Origin: a virus
Virus record (IMG/VR): IMGVR_UViG_3300030419_003630
Coordinates: 1 to 23,712 of that record
Reading direction: 5' to 3' (one strand)
DNA length: 23,712 bases
Shown: positions 11,017 through 22,533 of the stretch, piece after piece
How the letters are laid out: each line of letters starts with the position of its first letter
Numbering within the stretch: position 1 is the stretch's first letter
Program-made: the position numbers and the translations under genes
The notes under the pieces: generated by a model
What the model saw: only the letters and a program-made list of their open reading frames with translations
The model's database searches: none
What the model was told of the DNA's origin: nothing

Positions 11017-13008
11017 ATGTCAAGTAGCATCGCCACCATGCCTGTAAAAAAGATTCAGCTCACTCTCGATGAAATCCAGACGTGGCACAGCCGCATCTCC
11101 TCGGCAGAGGAGTGGCTAGAAGAGAACGTCCTTCCAGCATGGAAAAAGACGCTGGAGGACTACACCAGCGAGAGAGAACATGAAGGCCTTGTTTATGGAG
11201 GCGACGATGTTCCTGAGTTTAACTTTCTTCTCGCAACTGCAAATGTGATTGTTCCATCAATCGTGTCTGCAGATCCGTATGTCAGGTTCCACCCGCGACG
11301 ACCCGGCGATGAAGAGGGTGCGCGCATGGGTGAGGCCGCCGTGAACTACGTGTTCCGAGAAATCGGAATCAAGGACAAGGTTCAGGACATCGTCCTCGAC
11401 GCGTTGCTCTACAACCTCGGCTTCTCAAAGGTTGGATACGACCCGTCAGGGGCGTTCCTTCTTGAGGAGGATTACGACACAGGCCCTGAGCAGTTCGAGG
11501 AGGAAGAGGGTCAGATGACCCCAGACGCGCGCAGGGCACTGATGAAGGCTATGGCTGCCGAAGATGTCCCGTTCGAGGAGGGTCCTAGCGACAACCCCAC
11601 GGTAGAGCGCGTTGCTCCCTGGAACATGCTCCTCCCGTCTGGGTATGACGACATCCAGAAGTGTCCATGGATCGCAGAGCGCATGACCGTGCGCCTTGAT
11701 GACCTTCGGATGGATGAGAGGTTCAAGCTGCCCAAGAACCTTGATGCTGACTCTTGGATGTCCACAGGCGTTCCAGAGAACTATGCGTACAAGGAAGATC
11801 AGATCTTTGGCCTCAACGACGGGGACGCCGAGTACATCACCGTCTATGAGATCAGGTACTGGGCGCGAACCAAGGCGGGCCTTCGCCGTCGCGTCATGTG
11901 GATGGTCAGGGAGCAGGAGGGAGTCGATACCGGCGAGACAGTGATTCGCCACATCAACGACCCACTGTCCGTCCGTGGCTACCCCTACCAGATGCTCCGG
12001 TTCAACCGCGTGCCAGGGCTGCTCTACGCAACCAAGGTTGCTGAGATTGCCTCGGTAAGGGAGATCGCAGAGCGGCTGAACGAGGAGTGGGGAATCCTCC
12101 TGAGGCACCACAGGATCTCCTCCCGGAGAAAGTGGGTCGGACTGCCCGGAATCCTTGAGGATGGGCAGCTGGCTGGACTGCTTGAGTCCGATCAGGACAT
12201 GGAGGTCGCTGAGCTTCCTGCCAACGTGGGAGATATCCGCAACGCGCTGATGCTGCTCCCAGAGGCCGCACCACCCAGCACTACACCGATGGTGCTCCAG
12301 GGGCTGCAGAGGCTCATGTACGAAATCAGTGGCGTAGACGTTTATCAGCGCGGTGGGGTCGGAAGGAAGGGCACCACAGCCACTGAGGTAGCTGTCGCAG
12401 CACAGGGGTCGTCCAACCGGGCCACCACGCGACTCGGGGTCGTGGAGCGGTTCACAGAGGCCATCGCAAGGCAGGTTCTCTCCATCATCCGACAGTATTG
12501 GGATGAGCCCAGGTACATGCGCGTCACGGGCGCTACCGGAGAGAACGAGTTCGTCTCCTTCTCGTCCTCAGATATCTCTGGGATGTACGACGTTCTCGTG
12601 GAGGCAGGGTCCACCATCGGCAAGGATCCTGGAACCGAGCAGCAGGCGTTTATGGGATTGCTGCAGACGATCCAGGCAACCGTAGGCTCACTCGTCCCGC
12701 TTGTTCAGTCGGGAATGGCAAGTCCAGATACCATCAAGAACTTTGTCGATAAGGCGTTTTCGATCTGGCAAGCTGACAAGCGTATGCTCATGCAGCCCCT
12801 GGCTGCGCTGCAAGCAGCAGCAAGTCCAGCAGCCCCATCCCCAGCCGGTGGACCGTCGCTTGAGTCGGTCGAAGCAGGAAGAGGTATGGGTGGGCAAGGA
12901 GAGTCCCTGGCAGGGCCGCGAACTGAAGCTTCCCCAGGTGGGCAGACCAGCGGAACTGGCGGAACAGCAGATCTAGCAACACTGATGTCACGAGTAAGAG
13001 GAACCTGA
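11017..13008 (+). CDS. Portal protein
   Basis: This 663-aa protein has the layout of podovirus/siphovirus portals. The helical N-terminus (residues 15-60) precedes FNFLLATANVIVPSIVSADPYV (69-90), a hydrophobic helix-turn typical of this family. The wing (about 120-330) includes an acidic insertion near 148-190, followed by PYQMLRFNRVPG (323-334). The stem and tunnel-loop region (about 340-440) includes ISGVDVYQRGG (438-447), near a Thr/Ala helix rich in small residues (TTATEVAVAAQGSSNRATTR). The Ala/Pro/Gly tail lies beyond 595. It forms the dodecameric DNA gate. It lies on the plus strand, opposite both terminase and capsid genes. I see no clear ribosome binding site for ATG 11017 or for ATG 11038, which would remove seven residues. 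The TGA overlaps the next ATG by one base. Confidence 0.88.
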   Translation: MSSSIATMPVKKIQLTLDEIQTWHSRISSAEEWLEENVLPAWKKTLEDYTSEREHEGLVYGGDDVPEFNFLLATANVIVPSIVSADPYVRFHPRRPGDEEGARMGEAAVNYVFREIGIKDKVQDIVLDALLYNLGFSKVGYDPSGAFLLEEDYDTGPEQFEEEEGQMTPDARRALMKAMAAEDVPFEEGPSDNPTVERVAPWNMLLPSGYDDIQKCPWIAERMTVRLDDLRMDERFKLPKNLDADSWMSTGVPENYAYKEDQIFGLNDGDAEYITVYEIRYWARTKAGLRRRVMWMVREQEGVDTGETVIRHINDPLSVRGYPYQMLRFNRVPGLLYATKVAEIASVREIAERLNEEWGILLRHHRISSRRKWVGLPGILEDGQLAGLLESDQDMEVAELPANVGDIRNALMLLPEAAPPSTTPMVLQGLQRLMYEISGVDVYQRGGVGRKGTTATEVAVAAQGSSNRATTRLGVVERFTEAIARQVLSIIRQYWDEPRYMRVTGATGENEFVSFSSSDISGMYDVLVEAGSTIGKDPGTEQQAFMGLLQTIQATVGSLVPLVQSGMASPDTIKNFVDKAFSIWQADKRMLMQPLAALQAAASPAAPSPAGGPSLESVEAGRGMGGQGESLAGPRTEASPGGQTSGTGGTADLATLMSRVRGT

Positions 13009-13619
13009 TGCCCTACTACCCCATGCGATGTTCGTTCTCTGGATGCGGGATGGAGTTTGACTACTTCACCAAGCCCGACCTTTACATGGTCAGCAAGCGA
13101 TCTGGGTTCAGAGACATTCGGTGCGTCTACTGCGGAAGCTTCGGATCGGCGGATCGCGCCTACCCAAGCGACTCCGCACCAGCGAACACAACCGTCAAGG
13201 GAACATGGGGAAGACACGCCAGCCCAGGACTCAAGGGCAAGGACTTCTACACGAAGCAGGAAAGAGACCGTCAGCTCGCATCCGTTGGGCGTATCTCTGA
13301 GCCCATCGATGAAGGAGCAGCTCCGAACAGGCCAAGGAGCGCAAAGGTCTATAAGAGAAACGAAGAAGGAAAGATCGCTGAGGTCGTCAGGGCTAAGCCA
13401 GAGCCAAAGGCCATCGTCTACGATGAGAAGGCCATCAGCGCGAAGCCAGCCGACATCATCCGAAAGTTCGGAGAGCAGAACGGTGGGCTGGTCGTTTTCA
13501 GCGACATTGTGAACAGCGGCAAGATTGAGAGCCGCAAGCTCCAGGGCGGCATCATGGGAGCCATCAGGCAGGGGTGGCTAGAGAAGACCGAGCAGAAGAA
13601 GATCTACCGCCTCGTCTGA
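13008..13619 (+). CDS. Zinc-ribbon protein coupled to portal gene
   Basis: This 203-aa protein carries a four-cysteine ribbon near the N-terminus: C8 and C13 (CSFSGCG) paired with C39 and C42 (CVYCGSFG). The middle is basic, Pro/Lys/Glu-rich and probably disordered (about 85-140). The C-terminal domain (about 148-203: ADIIRKFGEQNGGLVVFSDI through GWLEKTEQKKIYRLV) looks like a winged helix. Nucleic-acid binding is therefore likely, but no known family is recognised. The ATG overlaps the portal TGA by one base and follows GAGGAA, so the two genes form a transcription unit. The last 16 bases overlap the end of the opposing large terminase gene. Roles in packaging, head assembly or regulation are possible. 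Confidence 0.78.
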   Translation: MPYYPMRCSFSGCGMEFDYFTKPDLYMVSKRSGFRDIRCVYCGSFGSADRAYPSDSAPANTTVKGTWGRHASPGLKGKDFYTKQERDRQLASVGRISEPIDEGAAPNRPRSAKVYKRNEEGKIAEVVRAKPEPKAIVYDEKAISAKPADIIRKFGEQNGGLVVFSDIVNSGKIESRKLQGGIMGAIRQGWLEKTEQKKIYRLV

Positions 13620-15496
13620 AAGATCTTGCTCTTCACTCGCTTGATCCACTTCTCGTACTTGTCCCACTCATCCCCAGACCACCTGTTGTGATCTCCAGAT
13701 GAGGCAGGGGTTGTGTCACCGCTGACATCTGCACCAGACCCTGGGCAGTAGTGAGCCACTGCGCTCGCAATCATCATCGAGACACAGGCGTCGTCATTCT
13801 TTCCGGGAGGGGCACCCATCCTTGCCTCAGACTCTGTCCCGTTCGGCTTGAAGTCGATCGTCCTTCGATAGGCAACCATCTCAGCGAGTACCTGCTGGGA
13901 TCTGATCTTGATATAGCCGTCTTTGAGAGCCTTTTGCATTAGCCCAACCATCGCAGGCTTAGTTTTTCTGTTAGTGTCCCAGCCTAGCATTTGGGTCATG
14001 CCTACCAGAGAGTCAACGCTCTTCCTCCGGTAGATGTTCCAATACTTGGTCTGCCCGAGCATGGCAACCAGACCAGCCCCAAGGCCAGACACCTCTGGTG
14101 CCAGGGTGGCGTTGTTGTAGTGCATGGCGATCATCAGTGACTGCTCAGCGAGTACGTCGAGATCGACCTTGCCCCTCCACTCAGCGACCTGACTCATGCT
14201 CGCGATGTCGATGACGACGATGTGGTCCCAGTCCCTGGACGACATGCCCTTGCTGACATCAACAGAAACAACGTAACGCCTGTTCCTTCTCGGACCCTCC
14301 CAGACAGACAGCCTCCCGTTTCCATCCATGCACTCCTGAAGCTCAGGCTCGTAGCTAGAGAAGAAGCGAACCCTTCCGGGCTCGTTACCGGAACCGTCTA
14401 CGATCTCGTACCACTTGTGCTCAGGACAGTCGTTGTCCTCATGGAGTCTCAGCCTCTTCGAGCACAAGTCGCATGAGCACCCATGCTTCCGCACCTGCTC
14501 CCAGACAAGATCTTGATCAAAGACAGGGCTTCCTGTCGTTGAGAAGGCCTCTTCGTCTGTACTCGGATACTCCTGCCTGAACCTGTCGAGACTTCCTCCA
14601 CACTTGCTGACAAGGGTCTCCCTGCGCCACTGGAGGTTCTCAAGACTGATCCAGTCACCAAACTTCTCAAGCAGCTCTCTCTCGTACCCATCAAGCGTCT
14701 TGCGGTACTCCTCCTCAGGAGAGGGGAGCTTTCTCTGGTACTCCTCCATGAGGAACCAGGGGGTGAAGAGCGCATACCACGTCGAGTCAGGATGCCCAGG
14801 GTGCTTGCGCTTCAGCTCCATCCAGGGAGGGATCTCATCCCACCAGACGTTCGCCGCTAGGTACTGGGTGTGGTGAAAGTCACCAGATCCGTTGCACGTA
14901 GACTCTGAGTAGATCATCGTCCCAGGCTCATCTGGCACAGCCTGCAGTGTCGCCAGGAAGAACGCCTCTGGGTTCTTGTAGAAAGCGACCTCAGAGCAGT
15001 GAACCTGTCTCGCCGTAAAGCCACGAGCATCGTCCACGCTCTTCGCTGTCATCACGATGAACCTAGACCGAAGTCCTGCAGAACCGTTAGGCGCTCTGAA
15101 GTCCAGCTCGTAGACGTTGTTGTACCTAGTTAGCGGCTTGACCTCATCCTTAAGGTAGTCGTAGAAGACCTTGCACTTCGTGAAGATCGCCCTGACAGAT
15201 GGCTCCGTATGCGCTGCGACAAGGGCAACCTCGTCGTGGTTCGTGATGCACTTCCAGAACATTCTCGCCTGGACGTGAGTCGAGCATCCCAGCTGCCTAG
15301 CCTTCGCCTCCCAGACTCTTACCGGGATCCCCTTGGCCTCCATCTCTGAGATAAGGCCCTCGCGGATCAGCTGAGACTTGTTCAGATTCAGATTTACGAA
15401 GTCACCACCCTTCGTCTGAATCCTCAGATACTTCTCTGCAAACTCGATGAAGTCGTCATGCCTCCCCGACACGAGGACATCTGCCGCCTCGTCCAT
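13604..15496 (-). CDS. terL: Terminase large subunit (packaging ATPase-nuclease)
   Basis: The protein is 630 aa from ATG 15496. A TTG at 15514 would give 636 aa and an 11-base overlap, and neither start has a strong ribosome binding site. Numbering from the TTG, the ATPase domain shows a variant Walker A AKARQLGCST (70-79), Walker B-like VHCSEVA with the catalytic Glu (E175), and the coupling motif YSESTCNG (202-209). The RNase H-like nuclease shows D419 in VSVDVSKG, E474 in LAPEVSGLGAG and D574/D575 in KNDDACVSMM. Between the domains lies a Cys/His cluster, C346-x-C348-xx-C351 and C363-xx-H366, that could bind zinc. It powers DNA translocation through the portal and cuts the concatemer. It converges on, and overlaps by 16 bases, the zinc-ribbon gene. 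Confidence 0.92.
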   Translation of the reverse strand: MDEAADVLVSGRHDDFIEFAEKYLRIQTKGGDFVNLNLNKSQLIREGLISEMEAKGIPVRVWEAKARQLGCSTHVQARMFWKCITNHDEVALVAAHTEPSVRAIFTKCKVFYDYLKDEVKPLTRYNNVYELDFRAPNGSAGLRSRFIVMTAKSVDDARGFTARQVHCSEVAFYKNPEAFFLATLQAVPDEPGTMIYSESTCNGSGDFHHTQYLAANVWWDEIPPWMELKRKHPGHPDSTWYALFTPWFLMEEYQRKLPSPEEEYRKTLDGYERELLEKFGDWISLENLQWRRETLVSKCGGSLDRFRQEYPSTDEEAFSTTGSPVFDQDLVWEQVRKHGCSCDLCSKRLRLHEDNDCPEHKWYEIVDGSGNEPGRVRFFSSYEPELQECMDGNGRLSVWEGPRRNRRYVVSVDVSKGMSSRDWDHIVVIDIASMSQVAEWRGKVDLDVLAEQSLMIAMHYNNATLAPEVSGLGAGLVAMLGQTKYWNIYRRKSVDSLVGMTQMLGWDTNRKTKPAMVGLMQKALKDGYIKIRSQQVLAEMVAYRRTIDFKPNGTESEARMGAPPGKNDDACVSMMIASAVAHYCPGSGADVSGDTTPASSGDHNRWSGDEWDKYEKWIKRVKSKIFQTRR

Positions 15497-15503
15497 GTAC
15501 TTC

Positions 15504-16124
15504 TTATTTGCCAAGGTGCTTCTTCATCCTGTCCGAAGGTGGTGGAACCTCTCTGCTCTTAAACTTCTTCCGCATCTCGGCGCGCCAGTGCTCAAGGTCG
15601 CTGCCGATCACATCGACATCGTCCTCGTGAAGCATCCTGCAGTTCCAGACTGTGCCCTTCATCATCCGATGCGGATAGGTGACGAAAGCCACACGAAGCT
15701 TTCCCATGGCCCCGTCAATCAACCTCTTGGCCTCGTACCTGCTTACGGAGATCCGCTCACCAACGTGCCTCGGAGCTATGTAGCCAGCTTCGTTGGCCTT
15801 CTTGAAGGCGCGCTGTGCTACCTCGTCAGAGAAGACAGGGGCGTCAGGAAGGGCCGGGGGCCCCACGTGCCACAGCCCGTCTGAGCCGATCCACTTCCTC
15901 CACTTACGGCGGGTCAGGATGGCGTTGCGCCACTGCTCCATCTCCCAACCGTATCGGGCTGTGTCGTCTTTGAACTCTGGGACTGTGACCGTGTCTTGGA
16001 GAAGCTCTCGGTCCTTAACCTTTGCGGCGCTAGGCCGGTAAGCGATGCTGTCATCCGCAGCCTTGCGCCACGAGTTGACCCCACCTACACGGTCGTTCCT
16101 AGCCAAGCTTCTCGTACTTCCCAT
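15504..16124 (-). CDS. Hypothetical protein, positional candidate for terminase small subunit
   Basis: The ATG at 16124 gives 206 aa. A GTG at 16157 (217 aa, preceded by GAGGGG very close by) is an alternative. Both overlap the end of the upstream acidic-protein gene. The protein is basic. Trp/Arg-rich helices occur early (YGWEMEQWRNAILTRRKWRKWIG). A helix-turn-helix-like stretch follows (EVAQRAFKKANEAGYIAPRH, then ISVSRYEAKRLIDGAMGKLR). It ends with a charged tail (MRKKFKSREVPPPSDRMKKHL). It lies immediately upstream of the large terminase, where the small subunit is normally encoded, and its length and basic character would fit. I do not recognise a small-terminase family signature, so the call is positional only. 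Confidence 0.6.
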   Translation of the reverse strand: MGSTRSLARNDRVGGVNSWRKAADDSIAYRPSAAKVKDRELLQDTVTVPEFKDDTARYGWEMEQWRNAILTRRKWRKWIGSDGLWHVGPPALPDAPVFSDEVAQRAFKKANEAGYIAPRHVGERISVSRYEAKRLIDGAMGKLRVAFVTYPHRMMKGTVWNCRMLHEDDVDVIGSDLEHWRAEMRKKFKSREVPPPSDRMKKHLGK

Positions 16125-17667: not shown

Positions 17668-19608
17668 CTAAATGCGGTTGTCAAAGTCCCTGTCCTCAAG
17701 CCATCCGAAGGGCTCTGGCAGGTGCATCGTGAAGGTTCCGGTCGAGCCGTTCCTCTGCTTTGCGATGCGGACGTTGAAGTCGCTGAAGTTCGCTGTCGGG
17801 TCACGGTTGAACGGTCTGTCAACGAAGAGGATGGCGTCAGCGTCCTGCTCAATCTGTCCAGACTCCCTCAGGTCAGACATCTGAGGGACACTGCCTACAC
17901 GTCGCTCGATGTCACGGTTCATCTGGACCACGGTGATGATCGGGACCAGAAGCTCGTTTGACAGGGCCTTGATAGCCCTGGAAGCGGCAGCGACTTCCTC
18001 CTGACGGCTCCTAGAGCTGTTCTCAAGCAGCTGCAGGTAGTCAATCACGACCATCTCGATGCCGTGCTTCTTCACGTTGGATCGGATGTCGTTGATGACG
18101 CGATCCAGCTTCCTAGAGCCGAAGTCCACGAGGATCGGGAGGGATGAGAATGTCCGCTTGGCGCGGGCTGCAGCCTCCTCAAGCTCATGCATCGGCAGCT
18201 TCGTGTTCTGGCCTAGACGCATCTGGGCAGAAGAGATCCGCTTGGCTACCGAAGGCTTACTCATCTCCAGTGACACGAAGAGACTCTTGGTGCCGATCTT
18301 CGTAGCCATGCGCTGCATCATGCTCAGCACGAAGTGGCTCTTACCAGTCGAAGGCCTAGCCGCAACAACCACCATGTCGCCCGGCTGAACCTCAAGAAGA
18401 GAGTCCATCAAGGGATAACCAGTGCGAACCTGCTTGCTCTGCTTCTTCCCAGACGCAACAGCGAGAACGTCCTCGACGCCCTCACTCATGATCTCACCGA
18501 TCCAAGTCTCGTCACTGATGGGCTTGTGAGACACGATTTCTGGAGACCGCTCTGGGTACTCCCTGAACCAGTCGCACCAGTCACCAGTGAACGACTCGGG
18601 CCACTCAATGCTCAGAGAATCAGCGCCAAGATCACCGAAGACCTCGACAACCCCAGGAGTCGAGCCACGACCCGCCTTGTCAGCATCGAAGCCGACCACC
18701 AACTCTGTGTTGCCGTCTAGAAGCCGTAGAATCCTCTCAGAGCGATTTTTATTGAGCCACCCAACCCCAGGTATACCCAGAGCCCCTAAACCGCGCTGAG
18801 CGAGCGCTGCGGCGTCAAGAGCGCCCTCTACGAGGAACAGTCTCTTCTTGCCTTCCTTGTTGGTCTGGAGTTCTCCCAGGCATGGGAGGTTGTGTGGAAG
18901 CGGTACTTTCCCCTTTAGGTGTACGTACTTAGGTCCTGAATCGCTTCCACTTCGGGAGAGTCTTCGGAACTGGATGTGCGCTACGGAGCCCCCTGGTGTG
19001 AGGTAGGGGATCGCTAGGTGGTATGCGAATCCGACAGGGCAGAAGAGGTTGTCAGACGACTTCGACTTCGCAGCGAGTCCCAGTCTTACGCAGGTCTCCA
19101 CGCTTGTTGCGTGTATCGCCGCTCCCATGGCTGCGTTGGCCTTGGGCTTGTCGATGTCTGTGATTCTGAGCTTCTTGACGGTCTCGTGGTTGATGCCTCT
19201 CTTGGTGACAAGCCAGTCGAGTCCGAACTCACCGATAGGCCCCAGGCTGTTCACAAACGCCGTACACGCAGCGATTCGCATCCTGTCTGGCAGGTCGTCT
19301 TTCTGCTCTTCGATCTCCGGGTACTTCACGTCCGTTCCGTTGATTCCGGTGAGCCACTCTACTGCCTGCTTGTTGTCGCATCCCCGTCGCCACTCGACTA
19401 GGTCGATGACATCTCCCGACCGCTGGCAGCCGTGGCACTTGAACCTGTGGCTTCCATCTTTGCGGTAGAAGGATATCGACGGAGTTCCATCCCCTGGTCC
19501 TCGGCTGTGGTCAGGGCAGTAGGCCTTTCTCTTGCCTCTTGCGATGGTGATTCCCAGGGAGTGTGCAACGGATCGGATGTCTCTGGTCTTTGCGTCTTCG
19601 ATGTTCAT
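17668..19608 (-). CDS. Bifunctional DNA primase-helicase
   Basis: This 646-aa fusion resembles the layout of T7 gp4. Residues 25-75 form a CHC2-type zinc finger (C31, H34, C58, C61). A Toprim primase domain spans about 190-345, with E261 in LFLVEGALDA and D308/D310 in VVGFDADKAG. A DnaB/RecA-like helicase spans about 395-646, with Walker A ARPSTGKS (417-424), Walker B MVVIDYLQLL (D523), the QMNR segment (562-565) and KQRNG (617-621). It makes RNA primers and unwinds DNA at the fork. The ATG overlaps the TGA of the upstream gene by four bases (ATGA), consistent with translational coupling to a helicase loader. No DNA polymerase gene appears in the window. Confidence 0.93.
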   Translation of the reverse strand: MNIEDAKTRDIRSVAHSLGITIARGKRKAYCPDHSRGPGDGTPSISFYRKDGSHRFKCHGCQRSGDVIDLVEWRRGCDNKQAVEWLTGINGTDVKYPEIEEQKDDLPDRMRIAACTAFVNSLGPIGEFGLDWLVTKRGINHETVKKLRITDIDKPKANAAMGAAIHATSVETCVRLGLAAKSKSSDNLFCPVGFAYHLAIPYLTPGGSVAHIQFRRLSRSGSDSGPKYVHLKGKVPLPHNLPCLGELQTNKEGKKRLFLVEGALDAAALAQRGLGALGIPGVGWLNKNRSERILRLLDGNTELVVGFDADKAGRGSTPGVVEVFGDLGADSLSIEWPESFTGDWCDWFREYPERSPEIVSHKPISDETWIGEIMSEGVEDVLAVASGKKQSKQVRTGYPLMDSLLEVQPGDMVVVAARPSTGKSHFVLSMMQRMATKIGTKSLFVSLEMSKPSVAKRISSAQMRLGQNTKLPMHELEEAAARAKRTFSSLPILVDFGSRKLDRVINDIRSNVKKHGIEMVVIDYLQLLENSSRSRQEEVAAASRAIKALSNELLVPIITVVQMNRDIERRVGSVPQMSDLRESGQIEQDADAILFVDRPFNRDPTANFSDFNVRIAKQRNGSTGTFTMHLPEPFGWLEDRDFDNRI

Positions 19609-20582
19609 ACCGGCAGCAGTCCCAGGTCGTACCTAACGTCTGTCACCAGCTGTCCGATGGCCCACTGCATGGCCCTGTCGCTCTCTGGCTTGGCCCCCAG
19701 TTCTCGTAGGGCTTCGAGCAGCGGAGCAGGGTCATGCGGGTCGCTGCTGGTCTCGAAGCGCTGCTTGATGAGCTTCACGAGCCTTTCTCTGTACTGCAGG
19801 TTTCCGTTGGTCATGTTCTGCCCGGAGAGGATGAAGAGGTCGTCCTTGAGGCTTCGGTTGATGGACACCCCGTTGACGACTACAGCCACCTCAGACCTTC
19901 CAGCGTTGACGGCATCGGTCTTGGCTCTTCTTGACATCCCCGACCAGTGTCCCTGGTCTGCAGTGGCCCTGATCACGGTCTCTTTCTCGAAGGACTCTGC
20001 GCGGTTGAACCAGTTCCCCAGGAAGCGTCTGATGGATGTCTTCTGCTTCTTCTGCCCCATCTCCCAGGCTCTAGCCTTCTTCGCTTCAGCCAGCAGGTCC
20101 ATGGTGGGGTGTGCCTCTTGCTGCACAGCAGCCCAGGTCTCCAGGGGCTTACCACGGGTCACCAGATCTCCCCAGGTTCGCTCCAGATAGTCTTCGAATT
20201 CCCCTCGCGCGTGTGTGATCGCGGGTGTGCGCCTGTCCGCGGGATCAGCACCTTCGGTGCATACCAACGCGGGTCCGCCCCCCCGCGCATTATGGGCGCC
20301 CGGGTCCGGGGGCGAGGGCGCGCCTACACGTGCGGGCGGGTCGTGCGGGCGCGTGAGGAACCATCCGCCCTCAGTAGGCCGCAGGAGCATCGTCTCCTGC
20401 AGGCCGGACAGCCCACGAGAGACCACCTCCACGGGCAGCCTGGAAATGGAGTGGATGTAGAGTGGATCGGCGTATTCAGCAGGTACATAGCCATCTGAAC
20501 GGGACACACTCTCTACAACAGGATAGACAGCAACACTCTGCCAACAGGCTCTGACCAAGCCGGGCAAGCTCAAGTAGTTCAC
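19605..20582 (-). CDS. Candidate replication initiator / helicase loader
   Basis: This 325-aa protein starts at GTG 20582, with a well placed GGAGG four bases upstream. Residues about 28-78 (SDGYVPAEYADPLYIHSI, then LQETMLLRPTEGGWFLTRP) resemble the winged helix of phage replisome organisers. Residues 80-123 are a Pro/Ala/Gly/Arg linker encoded by very GC-rich DNA. Residues about 128-195 (EFEDYLERTWGDLVTRGKPLE, SIRRFLGNWFNRAES) resemble the helical C-terminal domain of initiators, in which a final Trp/Leu-rich motif contacts the helicase. A further helical part (200-325) has no match. The position before the primase-helicase, with a four-base overlap, supports a loading role. Family is inferred from pattern. 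A generic DNA-binding protein is the alternative. Confidence 0.72.
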   Translation of the reverse strand: MNYLSLPGLVRACWQSVAVYPVVESVSRSDGYVPAEYADPLYIHSISRLPVEVVSRGLSGLQETMLLRPTEGGWFLTRPHDPPARVGAPSPPDPGAHNARGGGPALVCTEGADPADRRTPAITHARGEFEDYLERTWGDLVTRGKPLETWAAVQQEAHPTMDLLAEAKKARAWEMGQKKQKTSIRRFLGNWFNRAESFEKETVIRATADQGHWSGMSRRAKTDAVNAGRSEVAVVVNGVSINRSLKDDLFILSGQNMTNGNLQYRERLVKLIKQRFETSSDPHDPAPLLEALRELGAKPESDRAMQWAIGQLVTDVRYDLGLLPV

Positions 20583-20615
20583 GGCACCTCCAACGTCACC
20601 TCCGTGGCGACCCGA
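20583..20615 (-). promoter_or_regulatory. Short leader with doubled GGAGGTG
   Basis: On the minus strand the leader carries two copies of GGAGGTG about 12 bases apart before GTG 20582. The first could serve a four-codon frame TTG-GAG-GTG-CCG that ends TGA, overlapping the real start as GTGA. The duplicated ribosome binding site may boost or couple translation of the replication operon. Confidence 0.45.
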
Positions 20616-20617
20616 TG

Positions 20618-20647
20618 AGTGTACGCCACCGCAGCTGACGGTGTCAA
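20618..20647 (-). promoter_or_regulatory. Promoter for replication operon (TTGACA-18-TACACT)
   Basis: On the minus strand a perfect -35 TTGACA (20647-20642) is followed after 18 bases by TACACT (20623-20618, 4 of 6 to TATAAT). Transcription would start near 20611 and read through the short leader into GTG 20582. This is the best sigma70-like promoter seen in the window. Confidence 0.6.
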
Positions 20648-20657
20648 CCGGGTTTCT

Positions 20658-20674
20658 CTGGGCCGTAGGCCCAG
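20658..20674. repeat. Perfect inverted repeat CTGGGCC-GTA-GGCCCAG
   Basis: A seven-base-pair perfect stem with a three-base loop lies between the minus-strand replication promoter and the plus-strand methyltransferase leader. It could be a dyad operator shared by both directions, or a hairpin if transcribed. Confidence 0.6.
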
Positions 20675-20679
20675 GGTCG

Positions 20680-20688
20680 TGCTATCCT
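20680..20688 (+). promoter_or_regulatory. Possible extended -10 promoter for methyltransferase
   Basis: TGCTATCCT resembles an extended -10 element (TG-N-TATNNT). No good -35 box is found at the right distance. If real, transcription would start near 20695 and the leader would contain two stem-loops before the ATG. Confidence 0.35.
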
Positions 20689-20693
20689 GCGGG

Positions 20694-20760
20694 CGTCTGC
20701 ACCTCCACGTAGACGACCCACCTGCGAGCGCCCCGGTGACTGACCCGCCGGGGCGCTTGC
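20694..20760 (+). promoter_or_regulatory. Structured 5' leader of the methyltransferase gene
   Basis: Two stem-loops are visible. The first is CGTCT/AGACG (20694-20698 with 20711-20715), whose loop exposes CACCTCC, which can pair with GGAG-type ribosome binding sites. The second is a 13-pair stem (20724-20736 with 20748-20760) with one G-U pair and an 11-base loop, ending five bases before the GGAG site. The second is strong enough to act as a terminator or a translation switch. Confidence 0.45.
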
Positions 20761-20776
20761 GATCTCGGAGACCGGC

Positions 20777-21277
20777 ATGGTGTCTGCCTGGAACGGGACG
20801 CAGCTGTTCAGCTCAGCTTCCACAGAGTGGTCCACACCCCAAGCCCTCTACGACCACCTCCACAGTCGATTCAACTTCAGCCTGGACGCTGCCTCCAACG
20901 GCATGAACTCCAAGTGCCCCTCCTACCTCGTAGACGCACTCACACAGCCCTGGGACTGCCCCACCAAGGCCGTGTGGCTCAACCCTCCCTGGGGCCGTGG
21001 CATCGGTCGGTTCCTAGACCAAGCCATCCTCCAGTCAAGGGAACACAAGCTCACCGTCGTCTGCCTCGTACCCGCATGCACAGACACCCTGTGGTGGAGC
21101 AGGTACGCCTGGGCTGCTGCAGAGATCTGGTTCCTCACAGGACGACTGCACTTCGTCAGAGAAGACGGACACACAGGACCATGCACCAAGGGCGCTGCTA
21201 TCCTCGTCTACACACCCTGGCACACAGGAGACCCACAGACCCGACTTATGAACAAGGAAGAGTGGGCAGAGGGGTAA
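20777..21277 (+). CDS. dam: Phage DNA N6-adenine methyltransferase
   Basis: This 166-aa protein starts at ATG behind GGAG six bases away. It matches the phage Dam family (PF05869 type). The N-terminal block TEWSTPQALYDHL with FNFSLDAAS (16-40) precedes a Cys/Tyr segment KCPSYL. The catalytic motif is VWLNPPWGRGIGRF (66-79), the N-P-P-W form of the D/N-P-P-Y/F/W site. Strand VCLVPACTDTLWW (94-106) and a C-terminal block EIWFLTGRLHFV with GAAILVY follow. It transfers methyl from S-adenosylmethionine to adenine N6. Protection from host restriction or marking of replicated DNA is likely, but target specificity cannot be read. It is a single-gene plus-strand unit facing away from the replication operon. 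Confidence 0.88.
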   Translation: MVSAWNGTQLFSSASTEWSTPQALYDHLHSRFNFSLDAASNGMNSKCPSYLVDALTQPWDCPTKAVWLNPPWGRGIGRFLDQAILQSREHKLTVVCLVPACTDTLWWSRYAWAAAEIWFLTGRLHFVREDGHTGPCTKGAAILVYTPWHTGDPQTRLMNKEEWAEG

Positions 21278-21330
21278 GAGCGTTGGAGAGAGCGACGTTT
21301 ATGTACCCCGAATATATATAGACAAGATTC

Positions 21331-21349
21331 AGGGGGGTGGGGGGGTGGA
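21331..21349 (+). repeat. G-run (possible G-quadruplex)
   Basis: A run of six G, one T, seven G, one T and two G stands on the plus strand, with a further GGGG about 15 bases downstream. It could fold as a G-quadruplex in single-stranded DNA or RNA, though the third T-separated run has only two G. Confidence 0.5.
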
Positions 21350-21376
21350 TCAAGCTCTAGATAGAGGGGTACAGAG

Positions 21377-21445
21377 ACTGTCTAGGGGGTAGGCCTCTAA
21401 ACGATTGACAGGGAGCCTTGACTACTGCCCAGGACTACTGTCTAG
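21377..21445. repeat. Direct repeats ACTGTCTAG and GACTACTG
   Basis: ACTGTCTAG occurs at 21377-21385 and 21437-21445, exactly 60 bases apart. GACTACTG occurs at 21420-21427 and 21433-21440, 13 bases apart. TTGACA and TTGACT also lie here, 13 bases apart, but no -10 box follows either. The set looks like protein-binding iterons. Confidence 0.5.
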
Positions 21446-21709
21446 AGAGGGAACAGGGGCGACGTGCAGCGGTAGTACTAGTGGGAGGGGGAGACAGGAG
21501 CCCGAAGCGGGAGCTCCGTCCCAGCTCCTCCCCTCAGCCCCTATTCCGTCCAGCCCCCTGGCACCGTCTCTCCGGCCCTAACTCGCTCCGCCCCGTGTCC
21601 AGACATGCCCGGAGCCGCTCCGAGGCCTCTACGGCGCTGTCAGGGCCCTTCCTGGCCGTCCTGGGGCGGCCGCTGAGCCCCGGATCCCGGTCCAGGCCCA
21701 GGCGGAGCC

Positions 21710-21778
21710 CCGTCCTGGCGGACCGCTAATCGCTGTACGTCGCTCGATTTGTGGGGGGATGCTCAACCGCCAGGACGG
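21710..21778. repeat. 12-base perfect inverted repeat CCGTCCTGGCGG / CCGCCAGGACGG
   Basis: The arms are at 21710-21721 and 21767-21778 with a 45-base spacer. The core CCGTCCTGG also occurs directly at 21656-21664. A 14-base near repeat, CTAATCGCTGTACG at 21726 and CTAATCGCTCTACA at 21837, overlaps this set. Confidence 0.65.
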
Positions 21779-21804
21779 CGGGAGCTGAGGCTCCGGAACG
21801 TAGA

Positions 21805-21836
21805 AGGGGGCCTCCCGGTTTCCCAGGAGACCCCCT
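21805..21836. terminator. Probable bidirectional terminator hairpin
   Basis: An 11-position stem AGGGGGCCTCC / GGAGACCCCCT (one mismatch) with a ten-base loop lies 26 bases past the end of the minus-strand 223-aa gene. On the minus strand it is followed by TCTACG, on the plus strand by CTAATCG. There is no long T-run, so it relies on stem strength. Placement between two convergent genes fits a shared terminator. Confidence 0.5.
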
Positions 21837-21861
21837 CTAATCGCTCTACAGAGCCGCTGTG

Positions 21862-22533
21862 CTAGCTCGCCAGGAGGCCAGCCTTCGCCAGGGTCGCCTC
21901 AACGGCCTCAACGGCCTGCTTCAGCTCGCCCTGCTTGCCGGTGGCAAGGGCCGCGAGCCTTGCGGCGACGCTGGGGGAGTCCGTCCCCATTGCTGCAGCG
22001 GCTGCCCTTGCAGTGCTCTCCGCCGTCAGCCATGCCGCCATGACGTCCTTCCGCTGTCGGTTGGGGCAGGGCTTCACTGCTCCCGGAGTCGGGGGACTGG
22101 AGAGCATCCAGTCGGCCAGCCCAGGAGCCGGAGCTGCAGGAGCTGCAGGGGTCGGAGCGGCCTGGACGACTTCCACCACCTCGTCCGGCTCGTTCGACAG
22201 CAGCTGGAAGGCTGCAGGGGTCCCCAGGGCCTTGACCAGTCGAGCAAGGAAGTCGCTCCACTGGGACTCCGTCAGTCCCTCAGCATCGATGGAGAAGGCG
22301 GTCTTGTGCTTGCTGTAGGGGACCGTCTTGATCCAGTCCCCGTCGTCATTGAGCCGGACGGCGTGAACGTAGCACCGTCCGCCATTCCAGCACCAGATCC
22401 CCACTCCGCCGTCCTCCTTCGAACCGCCCTTGATCCAGGGTACGAAGTTGAAGACCTCAGCGAGACTCTTGAAGCTCCGGCGATTGGGGCTCTGTCCACT
22501 GTTTCTGCTCTGCTTCTTGAGGTGTCTAGGCAT
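21862..22533 (-). CDS. Hypothetical protein with Ala/Pro linker
   Basis: This 223-aa protein starts at ATG behind AAGGAAGAG. The first 20 residues are basic (MPRHLKKQSRNSGQSPNRRS). Residues about 20-118 form a compact domain with many aromatics (VFNFVPWIKGG, GIWCWNGGRCYVHAVRLND, WIKTVPYSKHKTAFSID, WSDFLARLVKAL). A Pro/Ala linker (124-138) follows, then a Ser/Pro/Cys stretch, then a helical Ala-rich C-terminal region (about 163-223) that may oligomerise. I do not recognise the family. It stands at the end of an early-looking minus-strand cluster with the VWA gene, before a terminator hairpin. Possible roles are host takeover or DNA metabolism, with no sequence proof. Confidence 0.72.
   Translation of the reverse strand: MPRHLKKQSRNSGQSPNRRSFKSLAEVFNFVPWIKGGSKEDGGVGIWCWNGGRCYVHAVRLNDDGDWIKTVPYSKHKTAFSIDAEGLTESQWSDFLARLVKALGTPAAFQLLSNEPDEVVEVVQAAPTPAAPAAPAPGLADWMLSSPPTPGAVKPCPNRQRKDVMAAWLTAESTARAAAAAMGTDSPSVAARLAALATGKQGELKQAVEAVEATLAKAGLLAS

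Follow-up and report, generated by a model that had tools for sequence, protein, structure and literature searches.

The replication origins oriR and oriL of Bacillus phage SPP1 are composed of direct repeats beside an AT-rich unwinding element, with gp38 as the origin-binding protein (PMC6316719). Of the two, oriR lies within one of the longest intergenic regions of the genome, and both the initiator and a DnaB-family helicase are encoded by the phage (PMC6316719). The origin of phage lambda has iterons next to an AT-rich tract and is tied to the gene of its initiator, the O protein (PMC7466680). The basal unwinding system of bacterial oriC comprises a DnaA-box, a GC-rich spacer, and DnaA-trios (PMC8287927). 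Origins of uncultured phages are rarely identified, and repeats and skew are weak guides to them. Here we describe a non-coding region with a short conserved core that is probably the theta-type replication origin of a tailed phage (we put the probability at roughly 0.7).

Genomic context of the non-coding region

The window, i.e., the whole stretch of DNA that was analysed, is a 23,712-base linear viral contig (IMG/VR IMGVR_UViG_3300030419_003630) from a tailed phage, with genes for an SU10/P22-like portal, large terminase, capsid, scaffold, SSB, primase-helicase, and Dam methyltransferase. DNA searches of GenBank phages, for close as well as remote relatives, gave no match to the window, and the nearest cultured or catalogued capsid relatives, e.g., those of Myxococcus Mx8/Mx9, were just 22-28% identical. 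Relatives were found by protein searches as IMG/VR contigs of the same group, which we take to be marine from the numbers of the source metagenomes. In the window and the compared relatives alike, the portal gene and its neighbour (11017-13619) are inverted with respect to all other virion genes.

The following features are discussed below.

17668-19608, minus strand: primase/DnaB-like helicase, from PHROG/Pfam family searches
19605-20582, minus strand: candidate initiator, with a winged-helix domain (residues 1-83) and a conserved C-terminal part, from AlphaFold2 and structure comparison
20618-20647, minus strand: sigma-70-like promoter of the initiator/primase operon (TTGACA, 18 nt, TACACT; one found against 0.1 expected)
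20777-21277, plus strand: Dam-type methyltransferase between the core and the initiator gene, outside the proposed origin and variable in position within the group
21278-21861, no strand: non-coding region, proposed replication origin, the longest gap in the window, with a syntenic non-coding stretch in relatives
21288-21309, minus strand: right-hand core motif GGGGTACATAAACGTCGCTCTC, with related forms in relatives in the core alignment
21311-21320, minus strand: AT tract TATATATATT, candidate DNA unwinding element, the least stable duplex in the window and the least stable 12-mer in most relatives
21332-21348, minus strand: C-tract of the core, CCACCCCCCCACCCCCC on the minus strand and a G-run on the plus strand, kept in 23 other group contigs
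21349-21861, no strand: repeat arm, located on the C-tract side and carrying short repeats, both direct and inverted, among them CCAGGACGG at 21656, 21710, and 21770, from the sequence and repeat statistics
21806-21836, minus strand: hairpin just after gene 21862-22533, without a T-run and not called a terminator, from the sequence and folds

The gene-free stretch of 584 bases claimed in a preliminary description of this DNA is real. It is bounded by the stop of the Dam methyltransferase ORF (plus strand) at 21277 and the stop of a minus-strand ORF at 21862, and it is the largest gap in the 23.7-kb window, the second-largest being 280 nt. A comparable non-coding stretch lies upstream of the homologue of gene 19605-20582 in relatives. 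The sole ORF of at least 60 aa in the gap (21418-21729, 103 aa) had no PHROG or Pfam match and no tblastn relative among the compared loci, and a sequence search with the flanking gene 21862-22533 gave no relatives. The flanking operons had been described as convergent, which holds where the methyltransferase gene sits between the region and the replication genes, whereas in relatives without the gene at that place the flanking genes are co-directional.

A conserved core of about 60 bp

The core spans ~60 bp (21288-21348) and reads on the minus strand as CCACCCCCCCACCCCCC, 11 nt, TATATATATT, and then a GTACATAAACGTCGCTC motif; its G-run on the plus strand (21332-21348) reads G6-T-G7-T-GG. The core recurs in 23 further IMG/VR contigs, all from one phage group. 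Contigs retrieved by pattern are partly selected for the AT run, whereas those found by protein (the window, L004, L014, L015, L020, L040, L045/G013, L061, L062, and L068) are not. The surrounding sequence is otherwise unalignable. Global alignment of the whole non-coding regions was uninformative because the core alone aligns. In the core alignment, where identity at the C-tract is inflated by anchoring there, identity was at background beyond ~60 bp on either side of the core.

The layout of the core in relatives is CCACCCCCC, followed by a second C-run or a G-run, the AT run, and a TACNTAAGCGTCG-like motif. The distance from the start of the C-tract to the AT run was 25-28 nt in 17 of 18 representatives and is ~27 nt in the window. 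The form of the core varies, with a direct C-run repeat in the window versus a C/G palindrome in many relatives, and a diverged form is found in G004 and G005. The core was present once per contig in 21 of the 25 group records, with no occurrence for a reversed-pattern control, and the C-tract/AT pattern occurs once in the window against 0 expected. G013 carries an additional C-tract ~200 bp away from the core, not convincing on reading as a second copy of it. G015 and G024 appear to start downstream of the expected core site. Contig ends also cluster within ~1 kb on the C-tract side at differing points (G042, G026, G027, G012, G031, G033, G035, G039, and G041).

The AT run at 21311-21320 is the only one of at least 10 nt in the window. 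The AT tract ranked first for low duplex stability in the 23.7 kb at window lengths of 12, 16, 20, and 30 nt, and was the least stable 12-mer in 10 of the 11 relatives tested. Among the 12-mers of five long relatives, the core AT tract ranked 6, 1, 1, 1, and 1 for instability. GC skew, suggested earlier as a check, did not consistently indicate the core: of the five long contigs, only one has its skew minimum there.

When the pattern CCACCCCCCN{8,22}TATATATATT was searched alone, 33 viral contigs were retrieved from IMG/VR, about half of which belong to the group, as judged from homology of the terminase, capsid, portal, or helicase or from near-identity to members. Those of the 33 that have an AT-rich context and no family genes (e.g., L085, L086, L088, L092, and L105) look like chance matches and were discarded. 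Bacterial and archaeal genomes totalling 257 Gb gave 15 scattered matches to the same pattern. Furthermore, an IMG/VR search with AACCCACCCCCCNGGGGGGT added two contigs with a different helicase arrangement. The signature is usable for finding members of the group from DNA alone.

Contig ends near the core raise the question of a packaging or terminal site, in which the core would mark the cut of a concatemer (cos or pac) or sit in a terminal repeat. Ends within ~1.1 kb of the core occur in three of the five long contigs (G042, G011, and G005) and in many short ones, G042 lacks only the 244 bp immediately upstream of the core, and the C/G palindrome of many relatives resembles a symmetric cut site. 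However, the break points are scattered over a range of 3 to 1127 bp, even between contigs of one species, other contigs of that species read through, and in G038, G013, and G032 the core is well inside the contig; we therefore read the breaks as a weak spot of assembly. In addition, IMG/VR finds no end repeats, the core of the window is a direct C-run repeat rather than a palindrome, and the large terminase gene (13604-15514) is ~5.8 kb away, the core being neither beside nor inside the terminase genes. A packaging role is thus unlikely.

Genes beside the core

Relative to the initiator/helicase genes, the core is located upstream, and its C-rich strand has the same sense as these genes, an orientation that is constant in the group. 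The distance from the core to the initiator start is ~130-370 bp in genomes with no methyltransferase gene in between and ~730-770 bp in those with one there, as in the window; in G013 the core is 7.6 kb from the initiator gene. The initiator differs by lineage (full length in some, another version in others, or just the C-terminal part), and so does the helicase (a fused primase-helicase or, in relatives, a DnaB-like helicase alone), while the core is kept throughout. The initiator candidate is reduced to its C-terminal part in L079 (8903-9388), L081 (966-1523), and L096 (~2472-2729), beside a DnaB-like helicase without a primase domain.

The constant orientation towards the replication genes would also fit a promoter or operator through which the core controls their early transcription, and TATATATATT is a conceivable -10-like or regulator site. 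This role seems improbable to us because a separate -35/-10 directly precedes the initiator gene and because an antisense methyltransferase gene lies between the core and the operon in the window, L061, L062, and L065. Moreover, the next genes in G013 run the opposite way.

Gene 19605-20582 showed no Pfam, PHROG, or PDB sequence family match. AlphaFold2 gave a confident winged-helix domain for residues 1-83 of its product, and the structural neighbours of the model include plasmid Rep initiators (4pql, Z 6.9; 5kbj, 6.5; 4pt7/4pta, 6.3). However, CRP-family winged helices score equally well, so the predicted fold supports DNA binding but not a specific function such as that of an initiator.

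The Dam-type methyltransferase gene varies in location within the group (20777-21277 in the window; also in L061, L062, L065, L006, L014, L015, L096, and L103), being located antisense between the core and the initiator, after the SSB gene, or near the DnaB gene. A copy with 39% identity was found in L002, a contig without other matches. Genes for tRNA-Met (cat) adjoin the methyltransferase gene in L014 (5623-5699) and L015 (4779-4855), and another is located ~50 bp past the core in L020 (2853-2929). GATC sites in the non-coding region are not enriched (2 against 3.1 expected), so there is no sign of Dam/SeqA-like control.

Repeats and hairpin

The AT tract, the G-run, and all of the repeats named in the preliminary description are present in the sequence. 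Copies of ACTGTCTAG lie at 21377 and 21437, of GACTACTG at 21420 and 21433, and of CTAATCGCT at 21726 and 21837, and CCGTCCTGG is present twice in direct and once in inverted orientation, with a perfect 12-nt inverted pair at 21710-21721/21767-21778. Direct 8-mers in the gap numbered 16 against 6.5 expected (p = 0.007, shuffles; p = 0.02, block shuffles), and 9-mers numbered 6 against 1.7 expected (p = 0.03, shuffles; p = 0.07, block shuffles). The short repeats of the window are only modestly above chance; the strong features are the AT tract and the G-run.

Repeat enrichment of the arm is clear in most relatives and weak in the window, and no iteron is common to all; CCAGGACGG also occurs twice in the arm of L004. 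The repeats called iteron-like are present, but the named 9-mers are mostly lineage-specific and only weakly above chance. When their conservation was checked in relatives, these 9-mers differed between lineages, and the signature that was kept is the G-run with the AT tract. The hairpin near 21806-21836 had been taken for a terminator, a designation we do not retain, as it has no T-run and a scan of 20500-22000 for a hairpin followed by a T-run gave 0 terminator-like sites.

The minus strand of the region folds better than shuffled sequences (z -3.4), as might be expected if a structured RNA were encoded there. However, the plus-strand fold gave a z of only -1.3, no Rfam match was obtained (0 at the gathering score of the curated covariance models), and the sequence outside the core is unalignable. 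No pairing is kept within the core either, because it takes the form of a direct C-run repeat in some genomes and of a C/G palindrome in others. A small gene is the other form of this explanation, and here the ORF 21418-21729 had no match in PHROG or Pfam and no tblastn relative in the compared loci. Both forms are very unlikely.

Proposed replication origin

Among the three candidates put forward in the preliminary description, the replication origin is the one favoured by the conserved core, the weakest AT tract, the initiator, primase, and helicase neighbours, and the repeat-enriched arm; the packaging site is less likely, and a functional RNA is little supported. In the proposed origin, the winged-helix protein (19605-20582) would bind the repeat arm, the C-tract, or both. 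The adjacent AT tract, as the weakest duplex around, would melt, and the primase-helicase would be loaded at the melted tract. Probably the C/G-tract determines both the edge of melting and its direction; it could do so by forming a rigid boundary, by serving as a protein site, or through a structure of the freed G-rich strand. Several observations count against an origin here: the GC skew, the weak and lineage-dependent repeats of the window, an initiator candidate that lacks a sequence family and whose fold matches CRP-type regulators equally well, and the 7.6-kb separation from the initiator gene in G013.

We further speculate that the C/G-tract and AT tract at fixed spacing represent a new phage origin core, read by a factor shared in the group or by a host protein. 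The genes for the initiator, primase, and helicase would then have been exchanged around an unchanged core, and helicase loading may take its direction from a strand-specific G-rich structure. This extension is tentative, and we regard it as possible rather than probable. Our literature search on C-tract or poly-G phage origins did not find the signature, the matches being SPP1-type, lambda-type, plasmid, or bacterial oriC work.

The short signature described here points to the likely origin throughout a phage group that is distant from cultured phages. The core also provides a target of ~60 bp for studying how an origin core stays fixed while the replication proteins around it change.

Comparison with known origins

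The layout of the region, with a repeat arm, C-tract, and AT tract beside initiator and helicase genes, appears from this comparison to be that of theta-type phage origins such as those of lambda and SPP1. The region resembles the SPP1 origins in its short repeats and AT-rich element, its long intergenic site, and its phage-encoded candidate initiator and DnaB-family helicase. However, the available parts of the SPP1 account describe no C/G-tract at fixed spacing (PMC6316719), SPP1 has two origins versus one core per contig here, and gp38 has no known sequence relation to the initiator candidate. The region resembles the lambda origin in its short repeats beside an AT-rich tract, although these are weakly enriched in the window, and in its linkage to a candidate initiator gene. 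The lambda origin, in contrast, is located within the O gene and contains four iterons of 19 bp, whereas the region described here is intergenic, its repeats are degenerate and lineage-specific, and its conserved element is the C-tract. Similar to bacterial oriC, the core has a G/C-rich stretch beside the candidate melting region at a short constrained spacing, with a C/G-tract of 15-20 bp here in place of the GC-rich spacer of ~4 bp in oriC.
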